Assembly (NCBI GenBank): GCA_030434875.1
Contig: JAUISW010000001.1
Location: forward strand, 2,801,501 to 2,865,500
Source: Lachnospiraceae bacterium C1.1
GTDB taxonomy: Bacteria > Bacillota > Clostridia > Lachnospirales > Lachnospiraceae
DNA: 64,000 nucleotides
Reading direction: 5' to 3'
Shown here: positions 7,486 through 32,180 of the stretch, in pieces
Position numbering within the stretch: the stretch's first letter is position 1
Layout: each line of letters opens with the position of its first letter
The notes under the pieces: model-generated
What the model was told of the DNA's origin: nothing
Database searches by the model: none
Seen by the model: only the letters and a program-made list of their open reading frames with translations
Made by a program: the position numbers and the translations under genes

Positions 7486-7632
7486 GTTACTGTTCACAGG
7501 CAAACTGCGCACTCCGCTGCGCAGTTATGCCACAATAACTCTGACTGAACACTGGGTTTTGCCCATTGCCGTAGGCAATCTTAAATGGCAAAACCCGTTA
7601 CTGGAGCACGCTGAAAGCGTGTGAACAGTAAC
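7486..7632. repeat. Multi-hairpin repeat element, copy A (short form)
   Basis: This 147-bp element is bounded by perfect 13-bp inverted ends GTTACTGTTCACA / TGTGAACAGTAAC. Inside are AACTGCGC/GCGCAGTT, GGGTTTTGCC/GGCAAAACCC (with ATTGCC-GTA-GGCAAT at its tip) and CACGCT-GAA-AGCGTG. It is the short form of the elements at 18495 and 31933, lacking two hairpin-tip extensions. It lies between the broken radical SAM gene and the rpn-family gene. No credible reading frame is present. Confidence 0.9.
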
Positions 7633-7652
7633 CATAAGTCTATATTTACTTC

Positions 7653-7699
7653 GTAACTGTTCACACCTTGCAGGTGCGCAGAGCTGTGTGAACTGTAAC
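7653..7699. repeat. Reduced single-hairpin derivative of the repeat
   Basis: Twenty bases after copy A, GTAACTGTTCACAC and GTGTGAACTGTAAC form a 47-bp hairpin. Its ends match the outer stem of the multi-hairpin element apart from two changes, while all internal arms are missing. It could be a deletion product or a solo terminal stem. Confidence 0.7.
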
Positions 7700-7717
7700 A
7701 GAACATTAAATAAAATC

Positions 7718-9119
7718 TTAACTCTTAACACCAATGCTCTCGATCATCTCATAAGGCATCAGTATTTTACCCTCATCAATACCCATATTTAAAAGATCTT
7801 TCTTTATTTCATCGAAAGCGGAATGGTTTGCAATTAATATTGCATCAAAATCATTTCTCTGCTCTCGCAGAATCTCCGGCACAAATATGGGAATTCCTCC
7901 AAATTTCTCGCCTTGTTTTTCTATTGATTTATCAATAAAGAAACTGACTTCTCCACCAGATAGCCTTACTGTCTTTGCAAAATATTCACCTAGAATACCG
8001 GATCCCCAGATTGCATATGACTTTCCACCTTCTATCAGATCACTTCCGATTCGAGTCATTTCTTTAATATCAGTCACATCAATTATCTTTCCATTCTCCC
8101 ACGAGTCTATCAGCTCACTTGAATCTGACATATGCGCTATTCCGTCAAATCCGATTTTTCTCAAAGATAAAGCTTTTTTAGAAAAGAAAAGATAATCCGT
8201 TCCTTTATGAAGAACGCCCGGATTAAAAACAGAATTTCCTAAGAATTCTACAAGTGTAGTTATATCCGCTTTGCTGCTAGTCCTAATTAAAATCCATTCC
8301 TTTTGACTTTCAGTAATAGCTTTATTCAATAGCTGTCCGAAATTGTCAGAACTCTCGACAATAAACTCATCATAATCAATATCAAAAAGAATGGAATTTT
8401 CTTTTTGAAAACGATCCGCATAATTTTCTATATAGCAGACTCCAAATATAAAGGGTGGTCTCTCCGCCTTGGATTCTTCAGAAATTTCACCGTTTTCTAT
8501 TTTCACAAGATTAATATGTCCATCCTTAAGCTTAGGACTATCCAGTTTTCTAAGCTTTTCATAGACAGTAGGGGATACATCATCTACTTCCTCTTTTGCA
8601 TCCCTGCTGAAAATGTTTTTCAAAGCAAACCCGCATAATTCACACCAATGAAGCTGATCCTTAAAATCCTCCGGTTGTCTTTTCCACCATCCCGGTTCAA
8701 TTTTCCAGCCACCCGGGCCATTAAACAGCATATCCAAAGCCCCGGCAACTTCACAGAAGAATGCTCCCCTTGGCGTAATCGTTGCACTCCATGAATTTTG
8801 CATCCAGCAATTATCTCTGAGCCTTATCCACTCCTCATCCGGAATACCTAAATCTTTTCTTGAAAAAAGTCCCGGCTGATGATATGACGGGTTAAGATGA
8901 TCATTTAAAAACTGGACTCCAAAAGTATCCTGAATAACCTCATAATGCCTCCGATATCCGGCACTCATATTTGACCATAAGCCTGCGCCCCGCTTTTTCA
9001 TATAACGGCTTCCATCTTTGTTTTCTATAATCCTCTCAGCTGAGAATTCACGTTCCTGCATCTTATATATAAAATCTTTTTCCGGAAAACACATGATATC
9101 CTTCTGTTTTCCATAATCT
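7718..9119 (-). pseudogene. Radical SAM protein paralog, C-terminal part (gene broken by inversion)
   Basis: The reading frame gives ~465 residues aligning with residues ~88 to the end of the intact radical SAM protein at 4747: DYGKQ (vs KFGKPS), KDFIYKMQERE, GLWSNMSA, LNDHLNPSYHQPGLFSRKDL, WCELCG, and the Rossmann-like tail SYAIWGSGILGEYFA ... ILMPYEM. The radical SAM CX3CX2C part is absent here and lies on the other strand at 10537-10732. The first available ATG (9094) is internal, so any product would lack the catalytic cluster. Similarity to the intact paralog is high but clearly diverged, so this is an old duplication. Confidence 0.85.
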
Positions 9120-9123
9120 TACT

Positions 9124-9384
9124 ATGAAACGAAAAAATATTCAGAAGAAGGTTGGTGATCTTATGGGTGGACATGTGATAGATTTGCCGGAGTTCAAGAT
9201 TTATGATAATGGAAAAGCAGATGGAATAGCTGAAGGAATACGAATTTTCATCGAAGATAAGCTAGAGGATGGAATTCCGGAAGAAACTATAGTTGAAAAG
9301 CTCAAGAAGAGATATGATCTGCCGGAAGAAAAAGCAAAAGAGTATATCGAACGGTATAGGTCAGCTGTTGAAGTAAATAAATAA
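9124..9384 (+). pseudogene. Rpn/PD-(D/E)XK family protein, C-terminal fragment
   Basis: About 86 codons match the typical C-terminal part of the family whose N-part lies at 10739-11464 on the opposite strand: KKVGDLMGGHVIDLPEF, then GKADGIAEGIRIF and an EETIVEKLKKRY / KAKEYIERY tail. The ATG used as the apparent start is internal to the original protein; no SD precedes it. The frame abuts the inversion breakpoint at ~9120. A terminator follows at 9396. Translation as a separate protein is unlikely but cannot be ruled out. Confidence 0.7.
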
Positions 9385-9395
9385 GAGAACGTTAG

Positions 9396-9440
9396 ACTTC
9401 CGATGTAAGGTATGAAATTTATCTTATGTCGGGAGTTTTT
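9396..9440 (+). terminator. Terminator after rpn C-fragment
   Basis: ACTTCCGATGTAAG and TCTTATGTCGGGAGT pair (with G-U pairs) around GTATGAAATTTA and are followed by T5. Sequence and layout match the terminator of the intact rpn-family gene at 6412. Confidence 0.75.
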
Positions 9441-9461
9441 ATTTTAAGTAATGTTGCAGGG

Positions 9462-9490
9462 AAGGTCATGTATAGTTGCATGGCCTTTTT
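9462..9490 (+). terminator. Second hairpin terminator upstream of the intron
   Basis: AAGGTCATG pairs with CATGGCCTT (one G-U) around TATAGTTG, followed by T5. It is the last recognisable element before the group II intron 5' end. Confidence 0.6.
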
Positions 9491-9532
9491 AGGTGTCTAA
9501 TTATTATTGGGAAACGTTAACAGTGACAGGCA

Positions 9533-10537
9533 GTGCGTCTAGAGAGGACGCTTTAGATAATGGATGGAAACCCCATATGGTAAGGAATTAACCACTCCAC
9601 CATTAGCAAGTCTTGGAGCCGAAGCGGTAACGTTAGGTTTAAGCGTAGTGCGCCAAGATAAGGGCGTACGTTCTAACTGGTGAGAAGCCAGTATGTTAAG
9701 GTCTAGCCAACCAACATTAGCGAGTCTTGGGTGGGCGTTGGAGACGGCGCCTGCCAAGCGTAGACAGCAAGATTGTAGGGTTGGGCAAATACGGCTCCGA
9801 AATGCTAGTCTGGGAAGCTGACGCCTCTACGCTGGCGGAAAGCAACAGAGAGGGTATCGCTAGGGCAAGATATCACCTCTTCCCACGGAGTACTAGTGCC
9901 AATCATGCAAAACATTGTGAACGTACAGTCAACTTGGGAGACCCACATATTCCCATAATGAAGTGGTATGCCGGAACAACCTACGCAGGGGAGAATGGTG
10001 ACGGATATGTGGGAGTCATATAGCTGCATAGTACCTGAGAAGGCGTGAAAAGGAAACTATAAGCGTTGGAGGAAAGGCGGCTACATAAAGTCATATCAAA
10101 AGGGAAACATAGTCTTATACTCAGTGATAGGAGAAACTATGGGAACGCAACTGGAGAGAATATCACAGATGTCAAGAGAAAATCCAGACATGGTCTTTAC
10201 ATCAATATTTCATCTCATCAACAAAGATCTGCTGAAAGCATGCCATACAGACATGGATGGAAAGAAGGCTGTTGGTATTGATGGAGTTACGAAAGAAATT
10301 TATGACAGCGAACTGGATGATAATCTTGACACACTGGTCTATAGACTCAGGAACAAGTCTTACAGGCCAAAGCCGGCAAGAAGAGTAGAAATTCCTAAAG
10401 ACAATGGCAAAACCAGACCTCTCAACATATACTGTTACGAGGATAAACTTGTACAGGATGCATTGAGAAGGGTACTTGAGGCCGTTTTTGAACCATCATT
10501 TTATAACGAAATGATGGGATTTAGACCACATAGGGGA
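9533..10537 (+). mobile_element. Group II intron, 5' part only
   Basis: The segment begins with GTGCG, the conserved 5' end of group II introns, and continues for ~600 nt of base-paired noncoding sequence (the ribozyme 5' domains) before an intron-encoded reverse transcriptase frame at 10139. The copy ends abruptly inside that frame at ~10537, where radical SAM coding sequence begins. The rest of the reverse transcriptase, the maturase region and domains V and VI are absent, so it cannot self-splice. Several apparent ORFs in 9539-10281 are ribozyme sequence read in frame by chance. Confidence 0.85.
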
Positions 10538-10558
10538 TCACGAATGCATGTAATTTAA
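10139..10558 (+). pseudogene. ltrA: Group II intron reverse transcriptase/maturase, N-terminal fragment
   Basis: The start is the ATG 5 nt after AGGAG at 10129-10133. About 133 codons match the N-terminus of LtrA-like proteins: NPDMVFTSIFHLINKDLL, GIDGVTKEIYD, YRPKPARRVEIPK, TRPLNI, EDKLVQDALRRVLEAVFEP and GFRPHRG. The family sequence should continue with CHDAL, but the frame passes into radical SAM sequence and stops 7 codons later at 10558. The YADD catalytic motif, X domain and nuclease domain are missing, so it is nonfunctional. Confidence 0.88.
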
Positions 10559-10732
10559 GATGCTCTAATTGCACAAGGTTTTGTGGGAATCACAAGAAGC
10601 CTTTTTTAATGGACATTGAAACATTCAGAAAGGCTGTTGATTCTTTGAAGGATTTTGATGGTGTTACAGGCATTATCGGAGGTGAGCCCACCCTTCACCC
10701 AGACTTTGAGAATTTTGCGTTATATATGCAGA
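10537..10732 (+). pseudogene. Radical SAM paralog, N-terminal part
   Basis: In the frame starting at 10537 the sequence reads ITNACNLRCSNCTRFCGNHK, then a segment matching FETFKRAVDS of the intact paralog, then GVTGIIGGEPTLHPDFENF and LYMQ. This corresponds to residues ~14-85 of the intact protein at 4747, including the CX3CX2C motif. The first ~13 codons are lost at the junction with the group II intron. The frame ends at the inversion breakpoint, and its continuation lies on the minus strand from 9119. Confidence 0.9.
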
Positions 10733-10738
10733 GTGTAC

Positions 10739-11464
10739 ATACGCAACTCTGTGTGTCAATTTTATGATAACACTAAGTGATATCGCCGACAAGTTGCCGT
10801 TCTCATTTTCCTTATCTAGTCTTGCGCGTATCTTCTTATATTCCTCAAGCAGATTGGAAAGTTCCTGGATGTCTCCATCGATCATATCCAATTTGTTTTC
10901 ATATTTGAATATATAGAATGGGATTAACATATAAAGCCTGTGTTCAAATATTTCATCTATGCTATAATCCCATATCCTTAAGAATGGAACTTTATATGAC
11001 GCAGCATTTCCATCTGGCATTTTTAATTCTATAAGAGCATTCTCTGGAGTGCGTTCAGTTTTTCTTAACAGCAAAAGTCCTGTATTTGGAAAATCAAATA
11101 TGACCTTATATAAGTCTCCCTCAACATCTGTTCTGGCTATCTGTGAATCATACTCGAATATCCTTATAAGAATTGATCCATCATACCTGCTGCTTTCGCA
11201 TTCAATGTGATATTTCTTGATCATTTCATCAAATATGATTTCAAAACTGGAATCAGTTATCTTCTTTTCCATTGATCCATTCTTGTGTTCTATGAATTCT
11301 TCATTTCGTAGTCTTTTGATAATCGCTCTTTTATCATATTTTTCTCCAAATATATGATTTACAAATGGAATCAGCAGATCATCACATTTTGTTTCCATTG
11401 TCCTGAATGCATCATCATACGGTGTCGACGATTCCATAGGGTTCTCTTTCTTTTCTTCTGACAT
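10739..11464 (-). pseudogene. Rpn/PD-(D/E)XK family protein, N-terminal part
   Basis: About 242 codons of a Rpn-like family common in Lachnospiraceae: ESSTPYDDAFRTMETKC near the start, KKITDSSFEIIFDEM, KKYHIECESSRYDGSILIRIFEYDSQIA (the Glu and following region fit a PD-(D/E)XK core) and LIPFYIFKYE. SD GAGGTG lies 6 nt before the ATG. After HRVAY the frame leaves the family and runs 22 meaningless codons across the inversion breakpoint to a stop at 10673. The C-part is at 9124-9384 on the plus strand. It is a different subfamily from the intact gene at 6494. Confidence 0.75.
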
Positions 11465-11745
11465 TTATTCACCTCAAATCTATTTATTTGCACTCAATTC
11501 ATGCTTAGATCAGAGTTGCGAATAGAGCTAGGAAAAGTTTCAAACAATTCTATTACACATCGATTACCTTATGATCATGGGAAAATTGGCGAACGCCGGA
11601 ATCTAATCATGAGTTGAAATGCCTAGATATAATATCATGTTAGATCACCAATGTAAAGTATGAAATTTTCAATGTTCAGAAATCTATATTCAAATTTAAT
11701 CTGTTTTCCTTAAAATTGTTTATAAAATCCATCCGTAAATTTTTA

Positions 11746-12516
11746 TTAACTTATCTTCTTAACATCCTCTGCAAACATTTCAATCTTTCTTTCACATCCA
11801 AACATACTTATTGTTGAATGGATTATTTTACTAGACTGATTTATGTAATCTACTGTAAAGATCCTGTCGCCGTAGACTTCCGGATACATGATCCTGTCAC
11901 CTACATGTATAAGTAGATCAGTATCCAATTGATAACTGTTATCCGCTAATGGCTCTTCTAAATCCTTTTTTCTTTCCTCCAGCCATGGCAGGCGGGGATC
12001 TCCGTCGCCCCATAGTCCAAAATTTATTATTCTTTTCTTTCCAAATATCTCTGCTTCTATAGTTGCATAACGATGTCTATATTCCATCTTTGTTATATAT
12101 TTATAATAATTTTTTAACGGCCCGATAACTTTGTCTATACGATTTGTTTTTGACAGGTGAACATAGCTCACATGCATGACACCATCATCAAGAATGCTTT
12201 TCAAGAATTCTTCATCTTCTTTACCAATCGGTATAAAGGTTTTCTCAGACTCTTTATTTTCTCTGCTTCCAAGTATCTCCGTAAAATAGGGAATTCTTTT
12301 CAAAGCTTTATCTACTTCCATTGGATTGTCGGTATCTATCAAAATATATCCCGGCAAAAGCCGACATAACATGATCAGACACTTTTCTTTTCTCCGCCTG
12401 ACACTTTCATAAACTGGAATGATACAATCCCTGTAATATTCTTTCTCAAGCCTGCTTTCTATCATAGACTTCAATTTCTGCTCATCACCACTTTTTACTC
12501 TTATCACATACCACAT
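11746..12516 (-). CDS. loaP: LoaP-type NusG paralog (transcription antiterminator)
   Basis: The protein has 256 aa from an ATG with GGGAG 5 nt upstream; in-frame ATGs further upstream would add a poorly conserved extension. The start MWYVIRVKSGDEQKLKSMI and the LLPGYILIDTD segment fit a NusG N-terminal (NGN) domain; the C-terminal ~60 residues, from HVGDRIMYPEVYGD on, fit a KOW-like domain. LoaP proteins are specialised NusG paralogs in Firmicutes that promote elongation through long polysaccharide or natural-product operons. Location at the head of the minus-strand glycan genes supports that role here. Whether it acts on the genes at 1-9 kb is inference, because the rearranged segment lies between. 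Confidence 0.82.
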   Translation of the reverse strand: MWYVIRVKSGDEQKLKSMIESRLEKEYYRDCIIPVYESVRRRKEKCLIMLCRLLPGYILIDTDNPMEVDKALKRIPYFTEILGSRENKESEKTFIPIGKEDEEFLKSILDDGVMHVSYVHLSKTNRIDKVIGPLKNYYKYITKMEYRHRYATIEAEIFGKKRIINFGLWGDGDPRLPWLEERKKDLEEPLADNSYQLDTDLLIHVGDRIMYPEVYGDRIFTVDYINQSSKIIHSTISMFGCERKIEMFAEDVKKIS

Positions 12517-12671
12517 ATTTTCTCCCTTTTTTAGCAAGCTTCGCCACTCCGCATATCCAATGATATGCAGCTTTTCTACATACAATATGACCACACTTTT
12601 GCAGCATCGGTACTCACCCCATACCTGCATCTAATGTTTATTAACAGAATCGAATAAAAAGCAATCTATTT

Positions 12672-12716
12672 TTTCGTAGATTAAGTCAATCTACGAAATA
12701 TTCGCAAATTTGACAA
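12672..12716 (-). promoter_or_regulatory. Promoter of loaP with overlapping operator-like dyad
   Basis: On the minus strand, TTGTCA (12716-12711) and TAGATT (12693-12688) are 17 nt apart. The -10 box lies inside the perfect 11-bp dyad TTTCGTAGATT-N5-AATCTACGAAA (12672-12698), which would cover the start region like a repressor operator. The predicted 5' leader is ~165 nt and holds a GCATATC/GATATGC hairpin at 12551-12568. Confidence 0.55.
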
Positions 12717-12721
12717 GGCCT

Positions 12722-12780
12722 AAAGGGCTCTTTTTTTTTTGCAAAAAATACAGAGCCTTTGCCCAAAAGGCATTGGCTCT
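12722..12780. terminator. Overlapping hairpins with T- and A-runs
   Basis: AGAGCCTTT at 12752-12760 can pair either with AAAGGGCTCT (12722-12731, beside T10) or, through AGAGCC, with GGCTCT at 12775-12780 (inner GCC/GGC). Read on the minus strand, the second hairpin is followed by GTATTTTTTGC and looks like a terminator insulating loaP from upstream transcription. The two folds exclude each other. Confidence 0.55.
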
Positions 12781-12817
12781 ATATGCTTCATTGAATCTTA
12801 TAGTCAGCGAATATAAT

Positions 12818-12873
12818 TTGACAAACTAATTAAAACTAATTAAAATTCCAATAACTAATTAAAACTAATTAAT
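12818..12873 (+). promoter_or_regulatory. Consensus-like promoter with 20-bp direct repeats
   Basis: TTGACA (12818-12823) and TAAAAT (12841-12846) are exactly 17 nt apart. The spacer and -10 region contain a 20-bp direct repeat AACTAATTAAAACTAATTAA, present at 12824-12843 and again at 12853-12872 (29-bp period), resembling paired regulator sites. It drives the ATPase remnant at 12915. Confidence 0.55.
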
Positions 12874-12914
12874 TCTTAAAGAACTAATTGACAATAATTA
12901 AAGGATGGTTAACT

Positions 12915-13046
12915 ATGAGCAATCCATACAGCCTGACATTTGGAAAAATCCCATACGAATTAGTATCCAGAGATGCTGAAATTCTGGAAATGATAGATAA
13001 TTTCAGAGTATTTGCAAGTTCATACCAGATGATGCTTATTGAGGAT
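12915..13046 (+). pseudogene. Remnant of an AAA-type ATP-binding protein, N-terminus only
   Basis: The frame starts MSNPYSLTFGKIPYELVSRD and continues to a region ending MMLIED. This resembles the first ~45 residues of a family of single-domain ATPases of Firmicutes that begin NPFSLTFGKEP and then carry a GVRGSGKT P-loop. Here the P-loop and all later domains are missing; the frame runs straight into the terminator of the gtrB-like gene and stops at 13190. AAGGATGG is a weak SD 5-8 nt upstream. The identification rests on a short motif from memory. Confidence 0.45.
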
Positions 13047-13062
13047 CTTCCGATCAATTTGC

Positions 13063-13105
13063 AAAAAACCCGTCCTGATCATTATCCGATCTGGACGGGT
13101 TTTTT
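13063..13105 (-). terminator. Bidirectional terminator of the gtrB-like gene
   Basis: AAAAAACCCGTCC and GGACGGGTTTTTT form a perfect 13-bp stem around a 17-nt loop. T-runs are present on both strands; it lies just after the stop codon of the glycosyltransferase at 13119. Confidence 0.85.
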
Positions 13106-13118
13106 AATTCTATATAAT

Positions 13119-14057
13119 TTATTTTTCCTCGCAATTGGTCTGCGATACGATATATATCGGTCTTCTCTTGGTTTCGAGATAGGTCTTTGAAAGATAAAGT
13201 CCGAGTATTCCCATGCAAAGGAGCTGGATTCCGGCTATGAAAACTACGATGGTCACTGTTGAAGCCCAGCCTGCAACAGGATCTCCGAAATAGAGCCTTC
13301 TTGCAATGATGAATATCATTGATATTATCGATACAAAGAAGCAAATGCAGCCAATGAGTGACGAAAGGGTCAGCGGGAATGTTGAGAATGCAACTATTCC
13401 TTCAAGGCTGTACTTAAAGAGCTTCCAGAATGACCATTTTGTCTCGCCTGCAACTCTTTCTACATTTTCGTATTCCAGCCATTTGGTCTTAAATCCGACC
13501 CAGCCGAAAAGTCCTTTCGAAAAGCGGTTGTATTCACTCATATCAAGCAGTGCATTTACAAATTTTCTGCTCATGAGACGGTAATCTCTTGCACCATCTA
13601 CCATGTCTGCCTGCGAAATATGATTCATTATCTTATAAAACATTCTTGCGAAGAATGAACGTATCGGGGGTTCACCTTTTCTTGTGACCCTGCGGGTTGC
13701 GACTGAATCGTAGCCCTGGTTTTTCACGACATCGTACATCTCCGGAAGGAGTGACGGCGGATCCTGCAGATCTGCGTCCATCATTACCACGTAATCTCCG
13801 GTGGAATTTTTAAGACCTGCGTATATGGCGCCTTCTTTTCCAAAATTTCTCGAGAATGATATATATCTGACTCTCGCATCTTTTTCTGCAAGTTCTTTCA
13901 TTTCCTTAAGCGAATCATCTTTTGAGCCGTCATCAACAAAAATAAGCTCAAATTCGACATCTTTCATTTCTGCTGTCGATTTAATAAATTCTTCATAAAA
14001 AAGCGGTATACTTTCCTGCTCGTTATAACAGGGTACTATTGCTGAAATCTTATCCAT
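13119..14057 (-). CDS. Polyprenyl-phosphate glycosyltransferase, GtrB/YkcC-like
   Basis: The protein has 312 aa. It starts ISAIVPCYNEQESIPLFYEE, has VDDGSKDDS and the metal-binding MDADLQDPP, and ends with two membrane segments (residues ~228-255, FPLTLSSLIGCICFFVSII, and ~263-290). This is the GtrB/CsbB/DPM1-like group that moves a sugar from a nucleotide donor to undecaprenyl phosphate at the inner face of the membrane, for glycan or teichoic acid decoration. No flippase or GtrA-like gene is adjacent. It has its own terminator, so it is probably monocistronic. Confidence 0.88.
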   Translation of the reverse strand: MDKISAIVPCYNEQESIPLFYEEFIKSTAEMKDVEFELIFVDDGSKDDSLKEMKELAEKDARVRYISFSRNFGKEGAIYAGLKNSTGDYVVMMDADLQDPPSLLPEMYDVVKNQGYDSVATRRVTRKGEPPIRSFFARMFYKIMNHISQADMVDGARDYRLMSRKFVNALLDMSEYNRFSKGLFGWVGFKTKWLEYENVERVAGETKWSFWKLFKYSLEGIVAFSTFPLTLSSLIGCICFFVSIISMIFIIARRLYFGDPVAGWASTVTIVVFIAGIQLLCMGILGLYLSKTYLETKRRPIYIVSQTNCEEK

Positions 14058-14175
14058 CTTCTTCTAACTCTCCACTATTACAGCATATCACAAACATCAT
14101 TCATAATAACACGAATAAAGTAAATCTTCAATTAGTCTAAGTCGCTAATTTTATACAATTTAGCCTATTATTACA

Positions 14176-14184
14176 TGTTATAAT
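14176..14184 (+). promoter_or_regulatory. Extended -10 promoter of dfx
   Basis: TGTTATAAT is an extended -10 (TGnTATAAT) about 50 nt before the desulfoferrodoxin start; no good -35 is seen, as usual for extended -10 promoters. Confidence 0.5.
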
Positions 14185-14234
14185 CTAAAGGTAGTTGTAT
14201 GCTTGTTATTCTTTAATGAACAGGAGGATTTCTT

Positions 14235-14618
14235 ATGGGCAAAATGATATTCTGCCGTTGTCAGAAATGCGGCAACTTCGTAACCTTTATTGGCGACAAA
14301 ACAGCCTGTACACCCAAGTGCTGCGGCGAAGAAATGAAGATTCTAAAGGCCAATTCTACCGATGGTGCTAATGAGAAGCATGTTCCCGATGTTAAGATCG
14401 ACGGCGACAAGGTCTGTGTACAGGTGGGCTCTGTTATGCATCCCGCCCTTGCAGAGCATCATATTGTTTTCATATGCCTCGAAACAGAAAACGGATGCCA
14501 GATGCACTATATTACCCCCGGCGACGAGCCTAAGACTGAATTTCTCCTGAATGGCGAGAAAGCCGTTGCTGTTTATGAATATTGCAACCTCCACGGTCTT
14601 TGGGTTAAGGAGCTTTAA
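14235..14618 (+). CDS. dfx: Desulfoferrodoxin / superoxide reductase
   Basis: The protein has 127 aa. The N-terminal ~35 residues hold CRCQKCG and CTPKCCGEEM, a rubredoxin-like centre I site. The C-terminal domain holds the centre II ligands of superoxide reductases: KHVP, MHPALAEHHI and the final CNLHG. The enzyme reduces superoxide to hydrogen peroxide without making O2, which suits a strict anaerobe. SD AGGAGG lies about 8 nt upstream of the ATG. A terminator of its own was not seen; the IS91 element at 14639 starts 21 nt after the stop and brings a terminator-like end that may serve. Confidence 0.92.
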   Translation: MGKMIFCRCQKCGNFVTFIGDKTACTPKCCGEEMKILKANSTDGANEKHVPDVKIDGDKVCVQVGSVMHPALAEHHIVFICLETENGCQMHYITPGDEPKTEFLLNGEKAVAVYEYCNLHGLWVKEL

Positions 14619-14642
14619 GCAATAAATTCAATCATTATAAAA

Positions 14643-14702
14643 AAGTGCCTTCGGCACTTCAACTCCCCTGCCCCTCACTCATGAGGGGTGGGGTTTTCTT
14701 TT
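14643..14702 (+). terminator. IS91 copy 1 left-end hairpin plus terminator-like stem
   Basis: AAGTGCC-TTC-GGCACTT (14643-14659) is followed by CCCC-N2-CCCCTCA-N4-TGAGGGG-N-GGGG and TTTTCTTTT (14665-14702). It would stop read-through from upstream genes into the transposase, and may also be the replication end of the element. Confidence 0.65.
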
Positions 14703-14728
14703 GCTCCATTTTCATTCATAATAGTTAT

Positions 14729-15877
14729 ATGAACATACTGCAAAAAATCTTTACCGACTACTATGAAACAATTATTTTCACAATGAAACCTCGCTCATCT
14801 GTCATTGAAAACATCGACAAGATGATTAATTGTGGCAATCCAGACTTTGGTGGTGCCATGTATGGATGCCCGGATTGCGGAAAACTTAAATTTGTTCCCT
14901 TTCGCTGTCACAGCCGCTTTTGTCCTTCATGCGGAAATAAGTATTCCATGGAACGCACCACTAACATGTCCTTCAAGCTGATTAAGGTCAATCATAGACA
15001 TTGCGTTTTTACCATTGCCGAAGATCTAAGGATTTACTTTTTACAGGATCGTTCTTTACTTAACTGCCTGTTTCATGCTGTTAACAGTGTTATTTCCCAT
15101 ATGTTCCGCAAAATAAATAAATCAAAAAATTTCACTCCCGGTTTTATCATGGTCCTGCACACTTTCGGACGTGATCTAAAATGGAATCCGCATATTCACT
15201 GTCTAATATCTGAAGGCGGTTACAGTGACAACGGCGAATGGCGAAACGTAACTCATTTTAATTACAAGCTTCTTCGCAGTTCATTTCAAACTGCACTTTT
15301 AAATGAATTAGAACCTTATCTTGGCTCTTCCTTTAAGAAAGTCAAAGCTGCCTGTTATGACAAAAATAAACAGGGCTTCTATGTTTATGCCAAGCCCAAC
15401 AAATGCAACCCTACCACCGTAATTAAATACATTGGACGTTACCTTGGCAGACCCGTCATTGCAACTTCACGTATTGACAAATATGACGGTGATTATGTCA
15501 CTTTCCACTACAACCGCCACGAAGATGACAAATATGTAGAAGAAACCATCCCTGCAACCGAGTTCATTGAACGTCTGATACGGCATATACCTGAAAAACA
15601 CTTTAAGATGATACGTTATGGTGGTATTTATGCCCGTCACAGAGACATTGACAAAAATCTTAACCGCGCCATTTCAAAAGAAAAGCACTCATTTCTTCGT
15701 GGCTTCAATAAATGGCGTACTGCACAGCTTTCCGCGTTCGGATATGATCCTCTAAAATGCGATTGCGGTTCAACAATGCTGTTCCTGGAACTATATTTTA
15801 ATCATAAGCGCGTTTCTCTTGAAGAACTATACGAGAAAGCCATGTCCAAGTCTCGTGGATTGCGTTCATCTGCATAA
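14729..15877 (+). CDS. IS91-family transposase (HUH, Y2)
   Basis: The protein has 382 aa. An N-terminal zinc-binding segment CPDCGKLKFVPFRC ... RFCPSCG is followed by the HUH motif (NPHIHCL, preceded by HTFGRDLKW) and two tyrosines three residues apart in KYIGRYLGRP, the Y2 signature of rolling-circle transposases. The C-terminal third carries a second CDCG. An in-frame upstream extension exists in this copy only; copy 2 has one extra G in the left-end stem that breaks it, so the ATG at 14729 is the likely start. No clear SD is seen. All catalytic motifs look intact. Confidence 0.93.
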   Translation: MNILQKIFTDYYETIIFTMKPRSSVIENIDKMINCGNPDFGGAMYGCPDCGKLKFVPFRCHSRFCPSCGNKYSMERTTNMSFKLIKVNHRHCVFTIAEDLRIYFLQDRSLLNCLFHAVNSVISHMFRKINKSKNFTPGFIMVLHTFGRDLKWNPHIHCLISEGGYSDNGEWRNVTHFNYKLLRSSFQTALLNELEPYLGSSFKKVKAACYDKNKQGFYVYAKPNKCNPTTVIKYIGRYLGRPVIATSRIDKYDGDYVTFHYNRHEDDKYVEETIPATEFIERLIRHIPEKHFKMIRYGGIYARHRDIDKNLNRAISKEKHSFLRGFNKWRTAQLSAFGYDPLKCDCGSTMLFLELYFNHKRVSLEELYEKAMSKSRGLRSSA

Positions 15878-15927
15878 CTTTATTAATCCGACTATACTTG
15901 GTATAATCCTTTCAGGAGGATACCAAC

Positions 15928-16101: not shown

Positions 16102-16159
16102 TTTCCATACCGTCTGTTTGTCATGCATTCCTTCATTATTCATTTCAATTTAATGTCCG

Positions 16160-18744: not shown

Positions 18745-18749
18745 TAAAA

Positions 18750-22498: not shown

Positions 22499-24853
22499 TT
22501 AAATTGAAAAATCTTTTTCCCTCAATACTATCAGATCATTGTCATCATAACGTTTGCCGACTATAAGGTCTATCAAATGACCCGGTGTCCTTCTGTCTGC
22601 GTGGTTTATGGCGCTGTCAACAATTTTTTCAACTTCATTTATGTTTACTGAATGATCTGCTGTCTGCATTTCATCGATACGGGTATAAAGAGCAAGCACG
22701 CCCATATCGTCGATAGCATATTCTCTCTGCCTTGCGTATTCCCTTGCATGGAAAACAAGATCGTCATTCGTATAAGTTGGAATATTTATATTTACATTAA
22801 AGAAGTCTTCCATCCACTCATGTGATGCCAGTGTTTTTTTCATTGTAAGTCTTGCATCTTCAAGGAAGAGAACAATGTTTGTATCCTGGTTATCGAGCAT
22901 CTCTTTTATTGTCTCAAGTGATTTTTCACTTAAGTCTCCGGCTCTTTCTATGAGCAGGGCTCCGGTATCAAGAGATCTGATGGCTTTCTTTATATCTTTT
23001 TTATTCAAAAGGTCTGACTTTATCTTTGCGATTTTTCCAAGGAAATCCGGATTTGTCTCCCTTAGATCGTTTGCGAGTGCACCGGCAAGACGTACTCTGG
23101 CTGATTCCTCGTTTCCGGTTATTATGACATTTCCGCGGTTTCCGACCATCTCGATATTATCGAGAGCTGATTTTATCAGCTCCGGAAGTTCATGCATGGC
23201 AAGGAAATCTGCAAAAATTTCTTTTTCCTCATCAGTAAATCCGGTGACCTCCTTAGGCTGAGGAGCTTTATATTTCTTCTTAGCCTTAATTTCGGCATCA
23301 TCATTTTTCCTGGATTTTTTAACTTTGCGTGCTTTCTGGGACTCTGCCTTGATTTCCTTCGGTCTGTCATTTTCCCTTATCGAACGCTCTTCAAATTCAA
23401 CTTCCTCATCCTGCTCATAACGACGCTTAAACTGCTTGCTTTGCGCAGTTTTTCCGGCAGCTATCTTCGGAAGCTCATCTTCTGCTGTCATTTCTGCAGT
23501 TATATCTCCCGGAAGCTCTCCGGTCATTTCTGCAGTTATATCTCCTGGAAGCTCTCCGGTCATTTCTGCGCTTATATCTCCCGGAAGTTCTCCGGTCATT
23601 TCCGCAGTTATATCCCCTGTATATTCAGCAGTCTTTTTAGCCTCGCTGACAGGTCTCTTTCTTTCCTCTGTTTCAAACGGAATTATCCTTTCCTCTTTTT
23701 CATGGATAGGCTGTCCCGTTCTTTTAGCAAATTCAGCAAGATTTTTTCTGATCTCATCCTGAAGGTTTACTGTGCTGTAAACACCGGTGTTAAAAGGCTT
23801 TATTTCTATTTCATCAATATTTATCCTGTTAAGGATCTCCTGATGAGGTATTCTCTTTGTGGGCTGATCTGAAACATCGACGCTCTTTATTTCTATCGAC
23901 ATTGACGGATCGGATTTTACCGGTGCTTTCTCCGGAAGCGGTTCCGGCTTTGCATCTTCAAAGCGAGCCTCTGACTCGACTTCAGCTTTTGCCCTGGCTT
24001 CAGCTTCTGCATTTACTTCTGTTTCTGTCTCAGGCTCTGTTTCCTCAGCTATTTCTTCAGCAGTTTCTTCTATTTCTTCTGCAGGCTCAGCTTCCTTGAC
24101 TCTTTCTCTGACCTGAACTTTTTCAGCCTTCTGTAATTTATGCGGCTTAGTATCCCTGACCTCGTCTCCGAGCCTTAATTCTGCTTCTTCAAGATCATTC
24201 TCATCACCGTTTTCTTCCAGTTCTCCATTAGAACGAAGTTTGGCACCGGACTGATTGTATTTTCTCTGTTGATCTTCTGTCAGGCTGACATGTTCCATTT
24301 TGAGTTCCATAGCCTTTGTGACATATTTGCCCCGTCCAAACCAGACTATAAGCTCATCACATTCGTCTATGCAATTCTTTTCCTGACCGTCTAAATGATA
24401 TAGATAGGCAAGTTCATAAGCCCAGCGCTCATCATATTCTACAGCTTTTAATTTCTTCAAAAGCTCTATGCATTCGCCGAGTCCTACTCCCTGTGACCTG
24501 TATAATTTGTATTGAAGTATATATACTCCGGAATCACCTTTAGCCAGACGCATATATTCCTTCAGATATTTTACTGCATCCGTGATCTCCCCGAGTTTTA
24601 TACTGATCTCACAAAGCGCATAAACCGTAGTCCTAAGCTCAGGATTACGATTATACATCATCATAAGGATGCCCTTCGCATCATCATAACGTCTGTTAAC
24701 TTTGTAGATTTCACTGACCATTCCGAGCATAGAAGCACTTCTGACTCTTCGCCAGTCAATAGTATCAACTATATTCATCGCTTCATAGAAATCTTTGCTC
24801 GCTATCAATGATTTTATCTGTGCCACACGCACTTTATATTCATAACGATCCAA
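22499..24853 (-). CDS. TPR protein with degenerate AAA-like C-terminal domain
   Basis: The protein has 784 aa and no known function. Residues ~1-200 look like TPR helical repeats (RYDDAKGILMMMYNRNPEL, DAVKYLKEYMRLAKGDSG). Residues ~210-530 are Glu/Lys/Ala-rich low complexity, including an 11-12 residue tandem repeat (EMTGELPGDITA). Residues ~560-784 resemble an AAA+ domain: NVIITGNEESARVRLAGAL sits where a Walker A would be but lacks GKT/S, and ALLIERAGDL resembles the Walker B strand. ATP binding is therefore doubtful. Such proteins recur in Lachnospiraceae genomes; a scaffold role is only a guess. Confidence 0.7.
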   Translation of the reverse strand: MDRYEYKVRVAQIKSLIASKDFYEAMNIVDTIDWRRVRSASMLGMVSEIYKVNRRYDDAKGILMMMYNRNPELRTTVYALCEISIKLGEITDAVKYLKEYMRLAKGDSGVYILQYKLYRSQGVGLGECIELLKKLKAVEYDERWAYELAYLYHLDGQEKNCIDECDELIVWFGRGKYVTKAMELKMEHVSLTEDQQRKYNQSGAKLRSNGELEENGDENDLEEAELRLGDEVRDTKPHKLQKAEKVQVRERVKEAEPAEEIEETAEEIAEETEPETETEVNAEAEARAKAEVESEARFEDAKPEPLPEKAPVKSDPSMSIEIKSVDVSDQPTKRIPHQEILNRINIDEIEIKPFNTGVYSTVNLQDEIRKNLAEFAKRTGQPIHEKEERIIPFETEERKRPVSEAKKTAEYTGDITAEMTGELPGDISAEMTGELPGDITAEMTGELPGDITAEMTAEDELPKIAAGKTAQSKQFKRRYEQDEEVEFEERSIRENDRPKEIKAESQKARKVKKSRKNDDAEIKAKKKYKAPQPKEVTGFTDEEKEIFADFLAMHELPELIKSALDNIEMVGNRGNVIITGNEESARVRLAGALANDLRETNPDFLGKIAKIKSDLLNKKDIKKAIRSLDTGALLIERAGDLSEKSLETIKEMLDNQDTNIVLFLEDARLTMKKTLASHEWMEDFFNVNINIPTYTNDDLVFHAREYARQREYAIDDMGVLALYTRIDEMQTADHSVNINEVEKIVDSAINHADRRTPGHLIDLIVGKRYDDNDLIVLREKDFSI
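23493..23620 (-). repeat. 36-bp tandem repeat in the TPR protein gene
   Basis: Three full units and one partial unit of a 36-bp repeat (start TCTGCAGTTATATCTCC on the plus strand) code for the repeated EMTGELPGDITA. Units differ by a few bases, mostly silent, so the protein repeat appears maintained. Confidence 0.85.
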
Positions 24854-24958
24854 CTCTTTATACCCCTTACTGCCTCTTTAAAACTGAATTGTATCCATTC
24901 TTCGACATAAGTTTAACACAGTGCTCAACTACTGTCAAAAACTTGTTGACTTTTTATA

Positions 24959-25828
24959 TCAACCGTGTATTTCTTTTAAAATTCCTGTTAATTTTGCAAA
25001 TTCTTCAAGCGAAAGTTCCTCTCCCCTTACGGTAACTTTTTTATCAATTCTTAAAATAGAACTTTCAATTTCTTCTTTTGAAAACTGAAGAAGCGGAGAA
25101 TTCTTTAATGCATTTGCCAATGTCTTTCTTCTCTGGTTAAAAGCTGCCCTTATAAGGCTGAACATAAGCTTTTCATCCGCCACTTCCACCTTTGGTGCCT
25201 TTGCCCTCTCTAGATGAACCACCGTAGAACCAACCTTTGGTGCAGGTATAAAGCATTTAGGTGAGACCTCCGCCACAATCTCAACATTTGAATAATACTG
25301 AACTGCAAGCGAAAGCGCCCCGTAATCTTTGCTTTTAGGCCCCGCCTTCATCCTGTCAGCAACTTCTTTCTGAATCATAACCGTTATGGAGGCGATAGGC
25401 GCATGACTTTCGAAAAGTCCCATTATTATCGGCGTTGTTATATAATATGGAAGATTTGCAACTATATGAAAAGGCTTACCGTCATTTTCCTTTGCTGCAA
25501 GCTCGTTTAAGTCCATTTTAAGGATATCATTATTGATCACCCTCACATTATCGTATTCTCCAAGAGTCTCTCCCAGCACAGGAATAAGCTTATCATCTAT
25601 CTCTACGGCTATTACTTTTCCTGCCGCTTCACAAAGATGCTGTGTCATGGCTCCGATTCCCGGTCCTATCTCAACTACGAAATCATCTTTTGTCACGCCT
25701 GAAGAAGACACGATTTTCTTTAATATATTATCATCTATCAGAAAATTCTGTCCGAATTTTTTCTTCAGGACAAAATCGTATTTCTGCATTATTTCTTTTG
25801 TTCTTGATGGATTTCCAAGATCAGCCAT
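24959..25828 (-). CDS. rsmA: 16S rRNA dimethyladenosine transferase
   Basis: The protein has 289 aa and dimethylates A1518/A1519 of 16S rRNA during 30S maturation, using SAM. KKKFGQNFLIDDNIL, the SAM loop VVEIGPGIGAMTQHL and the catalytic ANLPYYITTP are all present. Length is normal. SD AAGGAG lies ~11 nt upstream. It is 26 nt after tatD on the same strand, the common Firmicutes arrangement of tatD and rsmA. Confidence 0.96.
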   Translation of the reverse strand: MADLGNPSRTKEIMQKYDFVLKKKFGQNFLIDDNILKKIVSSSGVTKDDFVVEIGPGIGAMTQHLCEAAGKVIAVEIDDKLIPVLGETLGEYDNVRVINNDILKMDLNELAAKENDGKPFHIVANLPYYITTPIIMGLFESHAPIASITVMIQKEVADRMKAGPKSKDYGALSLAVQYYSNVEIVAEVSPKCFIPAPKVGSTVVHLERAKAPKVEVADEKLMFSLIRAAFNQRRKTLANALKNSPLLQFSKEEIESSILRIDKKVTVRGEELSLEEFAKLTGILKEIHG

Positions 25829-25854
25829 AGGCTTAAAAACTCCTTAATTTCAAC

Positions 25855-26637
25855 TTATTCTTCTATCCTGTAAAGTCTCAGCGCATTCTCATAGGTCTTT
25901 TCATAAACCTCATCCACGGATATTTCCTTTATCTCGGCAATTCTTTCTGCAACATTCGGGAGCAGATCTGACGAATTTCTCTCTCCCCTATGGGGTGTCG
26001 GTGCCAGATAAGGGCAATCCGTCTCCAGAACAAGAGTTTCCAGCGGCATTTTTCTTACAACTTCTACCGTCTTTTTAGCATTCTTAAATGTAACGACTCC
26101 GCCAATGCCCAGGAAAAATCCCATTTTGACGTATTCTGCCGCTATTTCGGGCGAATATGAAAAGCAGTGAATTACTCCTCCGATCTTTCCGGCATCCTCA
26201 GCTTTCATTATCTCAAGCGTATCCGCTGCTGCATCCCTCGAATGTATCACTACGGGTTTATTTGTCTGTCTGGCAAGATCCAGCTGCCTTATAAACCATT
26301 TTTTCTGTATTTCCGGAGCGGGATTTTCTTTCCAGTAATAGTCAAGCCCTATCTCTCCCACTGCCACTGCCCTGTCAAAAGAACTGAGCTTTTCTCCGAT
26401 CGATACTATATCATTTTCAGTGATATCTCCGCATTCGCCCGGAATTATTCCCAGTGCTGCATAGGATTCCTCATGTTCTTTTACCAGATTAAGACAGGTA
26501 TCCACTGATTTCAGGTCAGAAGCAACATTTACAAAATGTCTTACCCCTGCTTCCCTGATCTTTTTTATTGCATTTTCTCTGTCTTCATCAAATCTGCTGT
26601 CGTCATAGTGCGCATGTGTATCAAAAATTTTTATCAT
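25855..26637 (-). CDS. tatD: TatD family metal-dependent hydrolase
   Basis: The protein has 260 aa. FDTHAHYDDSRF (metal ligands HxH), VGEIGLDYYW, VIHSRDAAADT, GVIHCFSYS and ETDCPYLAP are the TatD signature motifs. The family has 3'-5' DNase activity and roles in DNA repair. An in-frame ATG 18 codons upstream overlaps the cotH-like gene; the start here fits the family N-terminus. It lies between the cotH-like gene and rsmA. Confidence 0.93.
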   Translation of the reverse strand: MIKIFDTHAHYDDSRFDEDRENAIKKIREAGVRHFVNVASDLKSVDTCLNLVKEHEESYAALGIIPGECGDITENDIVSIGEKLSSFDRAVAVGEIGLDYYWKENPAPEIQKKWFIRQLDLARQTNKPVVIHSRDAAADTLEIMKAEDAGKIGGVIHCFSYSPEIAAEYVKMGFFLGIGGVVTFKNAKKTVEVVRKMPLETLVLETDCPYLAPTPHRGERNSSDLLPNVAERIAEIKEISVDEVYEKTYENALRLYRIEE

Positions 26638-29880: not shown

Positions 29881-29890
29881 ACATATGATA

Positions 29891-31504
29891 TTAATCACAA
29901 TCGCGAACTATCTTCCTTACCTTGAGGACTGAAGGAGGAGCTACTGAGAGCTCATCTACACCCATTTCAAGGAATGTCTTTGTAAGCGATGTGTCTGCTG
30001 CAAGTTCTCCGCAGATTCCTGCCCAGATTCCTGCTGCATGTGCATTGTCTACTGTCATCTTTATAAGACGAAGTACTGCCTCATGATGTGTATCACAGAA
30101 ATCATCAAGTGCTGCATTCTGACGGTCTATAGCGAGTGTATACTGTGTCAGATCGTTAGTACCGATGCTGAAGAAGTCAACTTCTTTTGCAAGAAGGTCA
30201 GTAATAACTGCTGCTGCAGGTGTCTCGATCATAACACCCTGAGGTGCATCTTTATAAGGTACACCCTGCTCTTCGAGCTCAGCCTTAACCTCTGCAACTA
30301 TCTTCTTTATCTGACTGATCTCAGACATTGAAGTGATCATCGGATACATGATATAAATGTTTCCGTATGCTGCTGCGCGGAAGAGTGCTCTGAGCTGTGT
30401 CTTGAAGACTTCCGGTCTCTTGAGGCAGATTCTTATAGCTCTGAATCCCATAGCAGGATTTTCCTCATGACCGAGCTCAAAATAATCACACTGTTTATCT
30501 GCACCTATGTCCAGTGTACGGATGATAACCTTTTTACCGGCCATAAGCTCTGCAGCCTTACGATAGATTGCAAACTGTTCTTCCTCTGTAGGATATGTTT
30601 CCTTGCCGAGGTAGATAAACTCACTTCTGAAAAGACCAATTCCGCCTGCATCATACTGCAGTGCAGAAGCAATATCAGAAAGATTTCCAACATTTGCATA
30701 AAGCATAATGCTCTTTCCGGACTTTGTCTCAGTAGGTTTGCCCTTTAAGTCCTGAAGAAGCTGTTTTTTCTGATTCTGCTCATCAAGAAGCGCTTCGTAC
30801 ATCTTCATTGTTGTCTCATCCGGGTCAACAATAAAAATGTTCTTATCAGAATCAAGAATACCCATCTTACCATTCCAGCTCTCATTTACATCAATGTTTA
30901 TGATCGCAGGAATATTCATTGTACGTGCAAGAATTGCCGTATGTGAATTTGATGAGCCCTTTCTTGTAACAAACGCAAGAATCTTCGACTTATCAAGCTG
31001 AACAGTCTCTGAAGGAGTAAGATCATCAGCTACAAGGATTGAAGGTACAGTTGCATCTACAGATGCTTCACCCTCTCCTGTAAGAATTCTGATGACACGC
31101 TCCGATATATCTTTTACATCAACAGAACGAGCCTTGAAATACTCATCATCCATGGAGGCAAAAGTCTCGGCAAAGTTATCTCCGGTAACAGCTACAGCAT
31201 ATTCAGCATTCATTTTCTGTGCTTCAATGATGTTATATACGGAATCATTGTAACCATCATCCTCAAGCATCATTGCATGTACATCAAAAATTTCAGCATC
31301 TGCTTCACCGATCTCGGTCTTTGTCTTTTCGTAAAGGGCTCTAAGCTGGCTTATTGCCTCTTCACGTGCAGATTCATAGCGCCTTTTCTCGCCTTCACTG
31401 TCTTCTGTATGTTTTCTTTCGACAACCTGTTCTTTCTTTCCAAGATAGGCAATCTTTCCGATTGCTATCCCTTCATAGATTTTCTTCCCTGTATAGCGTT
31501 CCAT
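29891..31504 (-). CDS. ptsI: PTS enzyme I (PEP-protein phosphotransferase)
   Basis: The protein has 537 aa, slightly shorter than the usual ~570. The phosphorylated His is in GSSNSHTAILAR; PEP-binding motifs GGIGLFRSEFIYL, DIGADKQCDYF, GFRAIRI, IMYPMI and SIGTNDLTQYTLAIDR are present, with the catalytic Cys in WAGICGELAAD. It transfers phosphate from PEP to HPr. ptsH lies 24 nt upstream, forming a ptsHI unit. Confidence 0.96.
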   Translation of the reverse strand: MERYTGKKIYEGIAIGKIAYLGKKEQVVERKHTEDSEGEKRRYESAREEAISQLRALYEKTKTEIGEADAEIFDVHAMMLEDDGYNDSVYNIIEAQKMNAEYAVAVTGDNFAETFASMDDEYFKARSVDVKDISERVIRILTGEGEASVDATVPSILVADDLTPSETVQLDKSKILAFVTRKGSSNSHTAILARTMNIPAIINIDVNESWNGKMGILDSDKNIFIVDPDETTMKMYEALLDEQNQKKQLLQDLKGKPTETKSGKSIMLYANVGNLSDIASALQYDAGGIGLFRSEFIYLGKETYPTEEEQFAIYRKAAELMAGKKVIIRTLDIGADKQCDYFELGHEENPAMGFRAIRICLKRPEVFKTQLRALFRAAAYGNIYIMYPMITSMSEISQIKKIVAEVKAELEEQGVPYKDAPQGVMIETPAAAVITDLLAKEVDFFSIGTNDLTQYTLAIDRQNAALDDFCDTHHEAVLRLIKMTVDNAHAAGIWAGICGELAADTSLTKTFLEMGVDELSVAPPSVLKVRKIVRDCD

Positions 31505-31528
31505 TAAATTCTCCTTAATTTTCTGGAA

Positions 31529-31786
31529 TTACAGATTCTCTTCCATGAATTTTTTAACTTCGCTGCAAGCTGTCTCTTCGTCTTCACCTTCAACAGTAAT
31601 CTTAACAACAGCATCTTTCATAACGCCCATTGCCATAATAGCCATAAGTGCCTTTGCACTTGCAGACTTACCATTATATTCAACCTTGATGTCACTCTTA
31701 AACTGCTTAGCGCACTTTACAAGTAATCCAGCCGGACGTGCATGTAATCCTACTTCATCTGTTATCTTATACTCGAATTCTTTCAT
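31529..31786 (-). CDS. ptsH: HPr phosphocarrier protein with Ala at position 46
   Basis: The protein has 85 aa. GLHARPAG carries His15, the site phosphorylated by enzyme I. Counting from Met1 and aligning with B. subtilis HPr without gaps, position 46, normally the regulatory Ser (K-S-IMGVMSLG), is Ala here (K-A-LMAIMAMG); position 52 is Ala as well. HPrK-dependent Ser46 control of catabolite repression would then not act on this HPr. It is not Crh, because His15 is kept. Transport phosphorelay should be intact. Confidence 0.95.
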   Translation of the reverse strand: MKEFEYKITDEVGLHARPAGLLVKCAKQFKSDIKVEYNGKSASAKALMAIMAMGVMKDAVVKITVEGEDEETACSEVKKFMEENL

Positions 31787-31932
31787 CTTTTTCTGTTCTC
31801 CTTTTTCCTGATTTAGAACCTTTTTTGATGCCTACTCTTCGATAGGCATTCCACCTTAATCTACATTATAACAGAAAGTTCAACAATAATCATTAAAATT
31901 ATTATGATTATTCATAAAATCTTGAATTAATC

Positions 31933-32180
31933 GTTACTGTTCACAGGCAAACTGCGCACTCCGCTACTCTGTACGCTATTTCACTAAGTGCTGAAGCACT
32001 AAGTGAAATATGTGTGCGCAGTTATGCCACAATAACTCTGACTGAACACTGGGTTTTGCCCATTGCCGTATGCGCATAATACTTAGCGAAGCAAAGCTGA
32101 GCTTAGTATTATGCCAGAGGGGGCAATCTTAAATGGCAAAACCCGTTACTGGAGCACGCTGAAAGCGTGTGAACAGTAAC
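31933..32180. repeat. Multi-hairpin repeat element, copy C (long form)
   Basis: This 248-bp copy has perfect outer 13-bp inverted ends. It is nearly identical to copy B, apart from a small indel in the second extension (GTATTATGCCAGAGG here). It sits in the otherwise empty ptsH/32281 divergent intergenic region (31787-32280), ~50 nt upstream of the 32281 promoter. No coding potential was seen. Confidence 0.92.

Follow-up and report, generated by a model that had tools for sequence, protein, structure and literature searches.

The window analysed here is a 64,000-nucleotide stretch of Lachnospiraceae bacterium C1.1 (GCA_030434875.1, JAUISW010000001.1:2,801,501-2,865,500, forward strand). It contains three copies of a multi-hairpin repeat, all on the + strand and all with the ends GTTACTGTTCACA...TGTGAACAGTAAC. 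The repeat is very probably a non-coding miniature inverted-repeat transposable element (MITE) of about 70 copies that needs a transposase from another element, of the IS66 family, and in which the pairing of the internal arms was kept while their sequence changed and hairpins at the arm tips were gained and lost.

Copy 1 (7486-7632) is 147 bp in length and is a short type A element without tip modules. It lies between two copies of the 8-bp target duplication CATAAGTC, at 7478-7485 and 7633-7640. Over its 147 bp it is 100% identical to three other places in the genome, and because four places are identical, spread was probably recent. Copy 2 (18495-18745) is a long type A element of 251 bp with both modules, a 50-bp module at the tip of arm 1 (18528-18577) and a 54-bp module with the core CTTAGCGAA..TGAGCTTAG at the tip of arm 2 (18633-18686). 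Its 8-bp flanks match at five of eight positions, with three mismatches. Copy 3 (31933-32180) is likewise a long type A element with both modules and is 248 bp in length; its arm-1 module is 50 bp (31966-32015), its arm-2 module is a 51-bp variant (32071-32121), and it has no clear target duplication, with four of eight flank positions matching. A 47-bp remnant on the + strand (7653-7699) contains both ends of a type B element and is missing the interior.

The terminal inverted repeats of copy 1, at 7486-7498 (GTTACTGTTCACA) and 7620-7632 (TGTGAACAGTAAC), are the two sides of what had been described as a 13-bp outer stem. Internal to them are three arms. Arm 1 (7499-7531) is a 13-bp stem with one bulged A (7499-7511 with 7518-7531), and arm 2 (7554-7596) has an outer stem of 10 bp (7554-7563 with 7587-7596) and an inner stem of 6 bp (7565-7570 with 7574-7579); both arms are seen in the fold and in covariation. 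Arm 3 (7606-7622) has seven pairs (7606-7612 with 7616-7622), which form the pair set of the covariation test, and five of them are present in the + strand RNA fold. The right terminal repeat also serves as the 3' side of an alternative local hairpin, GTTACTG...CAGTAAC (7597-7632), which encloses arm 3. This right-end hairpin is the minimum-energy form of the + strand DNA fold and is mutually exclusive with the outer stem.

A first-pass annotation of the window, made from the sequence alone, had placed the three copies correctly, as reading all three confirmed, except that copy 2 ends at 18745 rather than 18744 (the last base is T, not C). Its description of the long copies as the short one plus an insert at the tip of each of the first two arms agrees with the 50-bp and 54/51-bp modules, and both inserts largely self-pair in the fold of copy 2, as its term imperfect hairpins implied. 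The three shared arms stand out best in the short copy; copy 2 (251 bp), in its minimum-energy RNA fold, forms the modules but has a rearranged arm-1 base. The 13-bp outer stem holds as sequence but not as a covarying helix, and is the terminal inverted repeat of a transposon, without covariation. Length change only at the tips applies to the window copies and is not general, for the congeneric genome G009 (L286, L289) carries a different module with the same CTTAGCGAA..TGAGCTTAG core on the 3' strand of arm 1.

The host genome is 4.23 Mb, of which contig C1 makes up 4.09 Mb. A genome search for the exact 13-bp end, which the annotation had proposed, gave 77 forward and 78 reverse matches (155 in all), with 0 and 0 for the reversed control. 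A search with the 147-bp copy gave 54 aligned pieces from the 40 of 91 first-look candidates that were scored. Copies were counted by their flanks, as the start and end of contig C1 repeat each other (5447 = 4084173; 11046 = 4089772). Several identical places recur at a constant offset between approximately 1-13.8 kb and 4078.7-4092.5 kb of this contig, a pattern consistent with an untrimmed circular chromosome, and copy counts need correction for it. At least 69 copies were rebuilt from fetched loci drawn from ends among the matches listed (100 of the 155), namely 68 of 146-265 bp and the 47-bp remnant. Three overlapping end pairs (177, 214, and 353 bp) were removed before counting, and copies interrupted by another insertion sequence (IS), copies with more degenerate ends, truncated copies, and unfetched places stand outside the count. 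The flank analysis has 70 rows, the 69 copies and one artefact row, which is the 37-bp right-end hairpin of the 253-bp copy L140.

In 54 of the 70 rows the 8-bp target duplication is perfect, and 61 have at most one mismatch. Perfect flank repeats of 4, 5, 6, 7, 9, 10, 11, and 12 nucleotides occur in 1, 0, 2, 0, 1, 0, 0, and 0 rows, respectively. An empty site was recovered on a contig of RUI497 (L086), a closely related Lachnospiraceae metagenome-assembled genome. Its flanks are 97-98% identical to those of locus L022 and enclose a single TTTGTTTT, and the L022 copy in the host genome lies between two. The elements thus show the properties by which bacterial MITEs are recognised: a length under about 600 bp, no coding sequence, high copy number, 13-bp terminal inverted repeats, a target duplication of fixed length (8 bp), and an empty site. 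For copies 1 and 2 of the window no empty site was recovered, window positions 6000-25900 being mostly without a long match in the conspecific genome G049. No match was obtained in a phage collection queried with copy 1 or in a plasmid collection queried with copy 2. Among the papers listed by a literature search on IS66 MITEs and on MITEs of this bacterial family no matching published family was noticed, and absence in print is not thereby established.

The short element was found in 9 of the 41 genomes searched, its own included. The 42 distinct short forms were sorted by eye into seven subfamilies, A to G. Subfamilies A and B coexist in the host genome and differ at 49-56 of approximately 150 alignment columns.

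The link to the IS66 family comes from larger elements of the same genus, in which a profile of two IS66-like proteins has matches in 13 of 48 genomes. The ends of the IS66-like elements found begin GTTAC(T/A/C)(G/A)TTCA, with a further change in one right end. The element of genome G013 is 2314 bp in length, has open reading frames (ORFs) of 587 and 147 aa, and has AGAGGATT duplicated on both sides (8 bp). Of the 24 bases compared at each end, 19 (left) and 21 (right) are the same as in MITE subfamily C. The element of genome G042, compared with type A, is 2193 bp in length, has ORFs of 534 and 104 aa, begins GTTACTGTTCACTGG, and is flanked by GTTCATTT twice (8 bp). The large ORFs of the G013 and G042 elements match PF03050 (IS66) at 53 and 71 bits (cut-off 23) and the NCBIfam IS66 model with E values of 8.5e-51 and 2.2e-48 (173 and 165 bits), respectively. 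Both features expected of an IS66-family MITE, ends in common with an autonomous IS66 element and an 8-bp duplication as in IS66, were thus found. Among published IS66 elements, 8-bp repeats are given for ISPpa5a and ISPpa7 (PMC3281130).

Two further loci touch on this relationship. At locus L197 (approximately 1440-1650; G000 C1:3406939 onwards), the left half of a type A MITE with the arm-1 module is fused to an IS66-like end, which agrees with the element of genome G044 at 61 of 75 bases. The orthologous site in G049 has a short type A element whose left side is cut by a contig end. This chimera suggests that the lineage once held such an insertion sequence and that MITE and IS recombined. 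At L195:7634-8385 (G000 C1:12133-12884) there is a single 752-bp element with GTTACTGTTCAG ends and ORFs of 105 and 67 aa. It is the only copy of its kind, being listed twice through the contig-end overlap, and has no target duplication. The 105-aa ORF has 361 homologues. It is similar to ORF1 of IS66-like elements, with 33 of 56 residues in agreement for G013, and also, by the annotation of two plasmid matches, to the start of IS1634 transposases. Apparently the element is a relic of an IS66-like element with ORF1 retained; as a single copy without target duplication, it was rejected as the autonomous partner of the MITE.

The folds of single copies are well beyond chance in most cases. As RNA, copy 1 (147 bp) has a folding energy of -64.9 kcal/mol, where shuffles average -38.0 (z = -7.5), and 0 of 200 shuffles are as good. 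Over 13 folds of single copies, as RNA and as DNA, z ranges from -2.9 to -7.8; 2 of 200 shuffles do as well as the weakest of these folds, that of subfamily D as RNA. In a structural alignment of the seven subfamily templates, 13 of the 36 arm pairs are changed on both sides and yet paired (shuffle mean 4.9), and 0 of 500 shuffles reach 13, these shuffles not preserving relatedness, with D to G being close kin. The full set of 42 short forms again gives 13 two-sided changes against a shuffle mean of 10.7, and 1 of 500 reaches 13. By arm, the observed count on the templates is reached in 6 of 500 shuffles for arm 1, 2 for the outer stem of arm 2, 202 for its inner stem, and 42 for arm 3. In the default alignment subfamily B and the arm-1 base are misaligned, and its pair counts therefore understate pairing.

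The outer stem behaves differently. None of its pairs is changed on both sides, and all four pairs that vary among the templates are broken where they vary, at nearly the same share of standard pairs among the 42 forms (92.7%, against 92.6% in the arms). Conservation of the outer stem is that of a terminal repeat and lacks covariation, whereas the arms covary. Copy L106 has a compensatory change within the right-end hairpin that excludes the outer stem. Compensatory changes, for which the annotation had proposed a check, are therefore present in the arms and absent from the outer stem. Distinct substitutions number 31 over 567 paired template positions and 73 over 363 unpaired positions (odds 0.27, p = 2e-9), so that, as far as the point was tested, which is in part, differences between copies do not ignore the predicted pairs.

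Several points weigh against the element being an IS66-mobilised MITE with conserved arms. Nine of the 70 rows lack a near-perfect duplication; these include window copies 2 and 3, and among them are the artefact row, the 47-bp remnant, and one copy (L140) with a 9-bp repeat. The empty site described above is the only one found. The covariation counts rest on an alignment that was fitted by hand. With the ends of the G013 element exchanged, agreement with subfamily C is still 18 of 24 and 18 of 24, and matched polarity is only slightly better. All five IS66-like large ORFs scanned fall below the NCBIfam IS66 cut-off of 180 bits (94 to 173), and one (L212) is also under the Pfam cut-off; the five are therefore divergent IS66 members. 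Ten candidate IS66-like or derived elements comprise two with a perfect 8-bp duplication, four without (5-7 of 8 positions mismatched), and four cut by contig ends. Lastly, an IS66-like transposase was not found in the host genome by a one-query search and the two-row profile, nor by the two-row profile in G049, which is 86% complete, and mobilisation in trans is thus suggested by the ends of the elements. Present mobility of the copies in this genome is not supported, since no mobilising transposase was found in the host. A transposase in the host is not a defining requirement of a MITE.

The tip modules are distributed over both backbones of the host. With the artefact and the remnant removed, 27 type A copies have no module, nine have only that of arm 2, two only that of arm 1, and 17 both, and for type B the counts are 11 with none, one with only that of arm 1, and one with both. 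Copies interrupted by an IS4-family element add type A with the arm-1 module, type A with none, type B with the arm-2 module, and type B with both, and all eight combinations of backbone and module therefore exist. Counted as distinct sequences, one B form from G049 included, 17 A and 4 B sequences carry the same 50-bp arm-1 module, and one further A sequence carries a differing one; 13 A and 3 B sequences carry the same 54-bp arm-2 module, of which nine further A sequences have slight variants. Because identical modules sit on backbones that differ at a third of their positions, the modules have moved or been exchanged between them. The module borders share one base (arm 1) or none (arm 2), and simple slippage between direct repeats therefore does not explain their gain and loss.

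What keeps the arms paired admits more than one explanation. Selection on a transcribed RNA (a structured RNA, a stabiliser of messenger RNA, an RNase III target, or an attenuator), with the MITE as vehicle only, would account for the 13 of 36 arm pairs changed on both sides and for the lower rate of change at paired positions (31/567 vs 73/363). Copies also lie beside genes, at a median of approximately 100 bp from the nearest ORF of at least 100 aa, and 0 of 58 lie inside such an ORF. Distinct one-sided changes give GU over CA pairs by 16 to 4 (binomial p = 0.012), but against unpaired positions as control the bias is 16:8 vs 16:20 (p = 0.12), and strand preference was dropped as an RNA signal. 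Orientation to the flanking genes shows no clear bias over the 58 copies with at least 1200 bases of flank (++ 21, -- 14, -+ 20, +- 3), three of these 58 lying between convergent ORFs. Type A copies with both modules (++ 8, -- 1, -+ 7, +- 1) are not taken to differ from short type A copies (++ 9, -- 7, -+ 10, +- 1). Rfam returned no family at gathering score within the elements when the whole window was scanned, and for copy 2 alone the best match was a microRNA model below gathering (E = 0.7). When the three copies were scanned for terminators, a single weak candidate lay within an element, at 32082-32101 in the arm-2 module of copy 3 (0.6 expected from shuffles), and one hairpin abuts copy 2. 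The arms do have covarying helices, as a structured RNA would, and such covariation is also possible for DNA palindromes. For the structured RNA proposed in the annotation there is thus no Rfam family at gathering score and no significant strand preference against the control, and a role in RNA is unlikely to be what preserves the arms. Palindrome correction alone, in which template switching makes paired changes and longer tips with no selection on folding, is somewhat easier to credit, yet we would not bet on it. Template switching on quasi-palindromes is reported to make imperfect inverted repeats more perfect (PMC7202029). In copy L140 the right end is GTTACTGTTCACACGC where other A copies have GTTACTGGAGCACGC, which makes its right-end hairpin a perfect palindrome, and in copy L165 arm 1 including its module is a perfect palindrome, the direction of change not being known. 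With such copies and the reported mechanism, arm covariation is therefore not proof of selection, and the claim that the folded form matters receives indirect support from it. Against correction alone, imperfections persist: in subfamilies D-G arm 1 keeps an internal GGA/GGA loop and arm 3 its tandem G-A mismatches, A and C retain the bulged A, and the outer inverted repeat of C, D, E, F, and G is still imperfect. Nor does correction by itself account for the fact that stems have fewer substitutions. The preferred reading combines selection on the element with palindrome correction, each keeping the arms in part; candidate causes of such selection would be tolerable folding beside host genes or aid in pairing the ends.

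For the modules, a rival account holds that they are nested mobile hairpins, small palindromes with a CTTAGCG..GCTTAG core that insert into arms. The arm-2 and G009 modules have the core CTTAGCGAA...TGAGCTTAG in common, the same modules occupy the same positions on two diverged backbones, and the fetched loci L008, L165, and L277 contain free-standing hairpins of the form CTTAGCGAGG..CGAGCTTAG. These free-standing hairpins, which have the core of the arm-2 module, are possibly a separate small repeat family. The module borders have no target duplication, exchange accounts more readily than repeated insertion for the shared position in A and B, and first-look candidates were 93 for the long query and 91 for the short (40 scored each), which suggests that the modules seldom occur without the element; nested insertion is accordingly doubtful. 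A broader proposal treats the arms as acceptors of palindromic DNA. Template switching between copies would capture, swap, and remove modules at the tips; the length of the element would thus evolve through a folded-strand mechanism, of which the compensatory stem changes would be largely a by-product, rather than a result of RNA selection. It is a tentative idea with a real though minority chance of being right. As mobiliser, an IS4-family element present in several copies was also considered, for it lies inside MITE ends at six of its nine full-length places (five of eight once the contig-end duplicate is removed). It is 1734 bp in length with a 443-aa transposase and ends of its own (CAATGTCAGTAAG...), it inserts within the MITE ends, and its duplications are 10 bp rather than 8 bp, so that it is hardly credible in this role; the 1.7-kb insert between MITE ends was rejected as an autonomous partner in the own genome on account of those ends. 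The 10-bp duplications flank eight of the nine places, three of them outside any MITE; at the ninth (L179) there are MITE ends on both sides but no matching duplications.

The mechanism that emerges for an IS66-mobilised MITE is as follows. A transposase would bind the terminal repeats and move or copy the element into AT-rich intergenic DNA. The interior consists of three hairpin arms whose pairing was largely retained as the sequence changed. Hairpin modules are acquired and dropped by the arms and pass from copy to copy, the likeliest route being template switching or short-homology recombination on palindromes, as the identical modules on diverged backbones and the two copies with an arm made perfect suggest. 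Because the transposase was not found in this genome, the copies may now be stranded or reliant on an enzyme arriving from another strain.

Other repeats and genes were also noted. The IS4-family element within MITE ends was seen in G000 C1 (L179-L187) and at loci L089, L091, L092, and L195, with NNGTGTGAAC in four; such placement, in five of eight distinct copies, has a probability of approximately 1e-11 under random insertion. A short element with inverted repeats at approximately 6696-6793 of L195 has CAATGTCATTAAGTTAAG-like ends and is perhaps a MITE that belongs to the IS4-family element; two of the IS66 MITEs (L005 and L019) lie in or against ends of this type. Left of position 2760 of L092, on the minus strand (L179), a further multi-hairpin repeat starts GTTACTGTTCAGTTAGCAGCC and has its own CTTAGCGC..GCGCTTAG hairpin; it is perhaps another subfamily. 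An ORF at L092:628-870 is mostly a (TDRQ)n tandem repeat, a simple-sequence tract. Within the window lies a radical SAM gene (7718-9094) with a 98% identical relative of 545 aa (P0121), whose first 87 residues it lacks. Upstream of the gene (9113-10150), the segment 9113-9372 matches G049 at 88%, and 9683-9900 matches the group II intron family RF02005.

Structured repeats are often called functional because their stems covary. In the present family, one genome and its congeners show covariation in the arms, none in the terminal stem, and two perfected arms, which makes the family a natural system in which to ask whether selection or template switching lies behind covariation in palindromic mobile DNA. 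Through it, IS66-family transposases are also connected with a large MITE family in a genus of Lachnospiraceae. The element is ordinary in kind, a MITE tied here to the IS66 family, and its fold is unusually well documented: the arms covary, the ends do not, and the tips are modular.

The annotation had called the repeat MITE- or REP-like. The first term stands, by the 8-bp duplications, the IS66 ends in congeners, and the empty site. REP elements are palindromes of 20-40 bp tied to their own transposase (TnpA-REP). The MITE is like them in being palindromic and of high copy number and differs in its inverted terminal repeats and 8-bp duplications, which speak against a REP in the strict Y1/RAYT sense, although no search for RAYT genes was made. 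The repeats bcr1 and ERIC are structured and MITE-like and are reported to fold; the likeness is by description and not by sequence. Correia/NEMIS elements of Neisseria have TA as target, which differs from the MITE here. They are similar in having size classes of one MITE (approximately 107 and 155 bp) and, as a NEMIS feature, folded transcripts (PMC2229807). The same paper proposes a role of RNase III for NEMIS; no such role is known for the MITE here. BOX of Streptococcus pneumoniae (PMC3049150) is likewise a high-copy, MITE-like element in which modular length variation (variable boxB) is tolerated by the fold; that likeness is by description and not by end sequence. BOX has tandem boxB units in the middle of the element, whereas here two different hairpin modules are added independently at the arm tips. 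Closest are the IS66 elements themselves. ISPpa5a and ISPpa7 share the 8-bp target duplication (PMC3281130), and the IS66 elements of this genus are multi-ORF, with a PF03050 transposase and GTTAC(T/A/C)(G/A)TTCA ends that match those of the MITE. The MITE differs in having no transposase and an interior of folded arms, and the transposases of this genus are divergent members of their family, below the NCBIfam cut-off.

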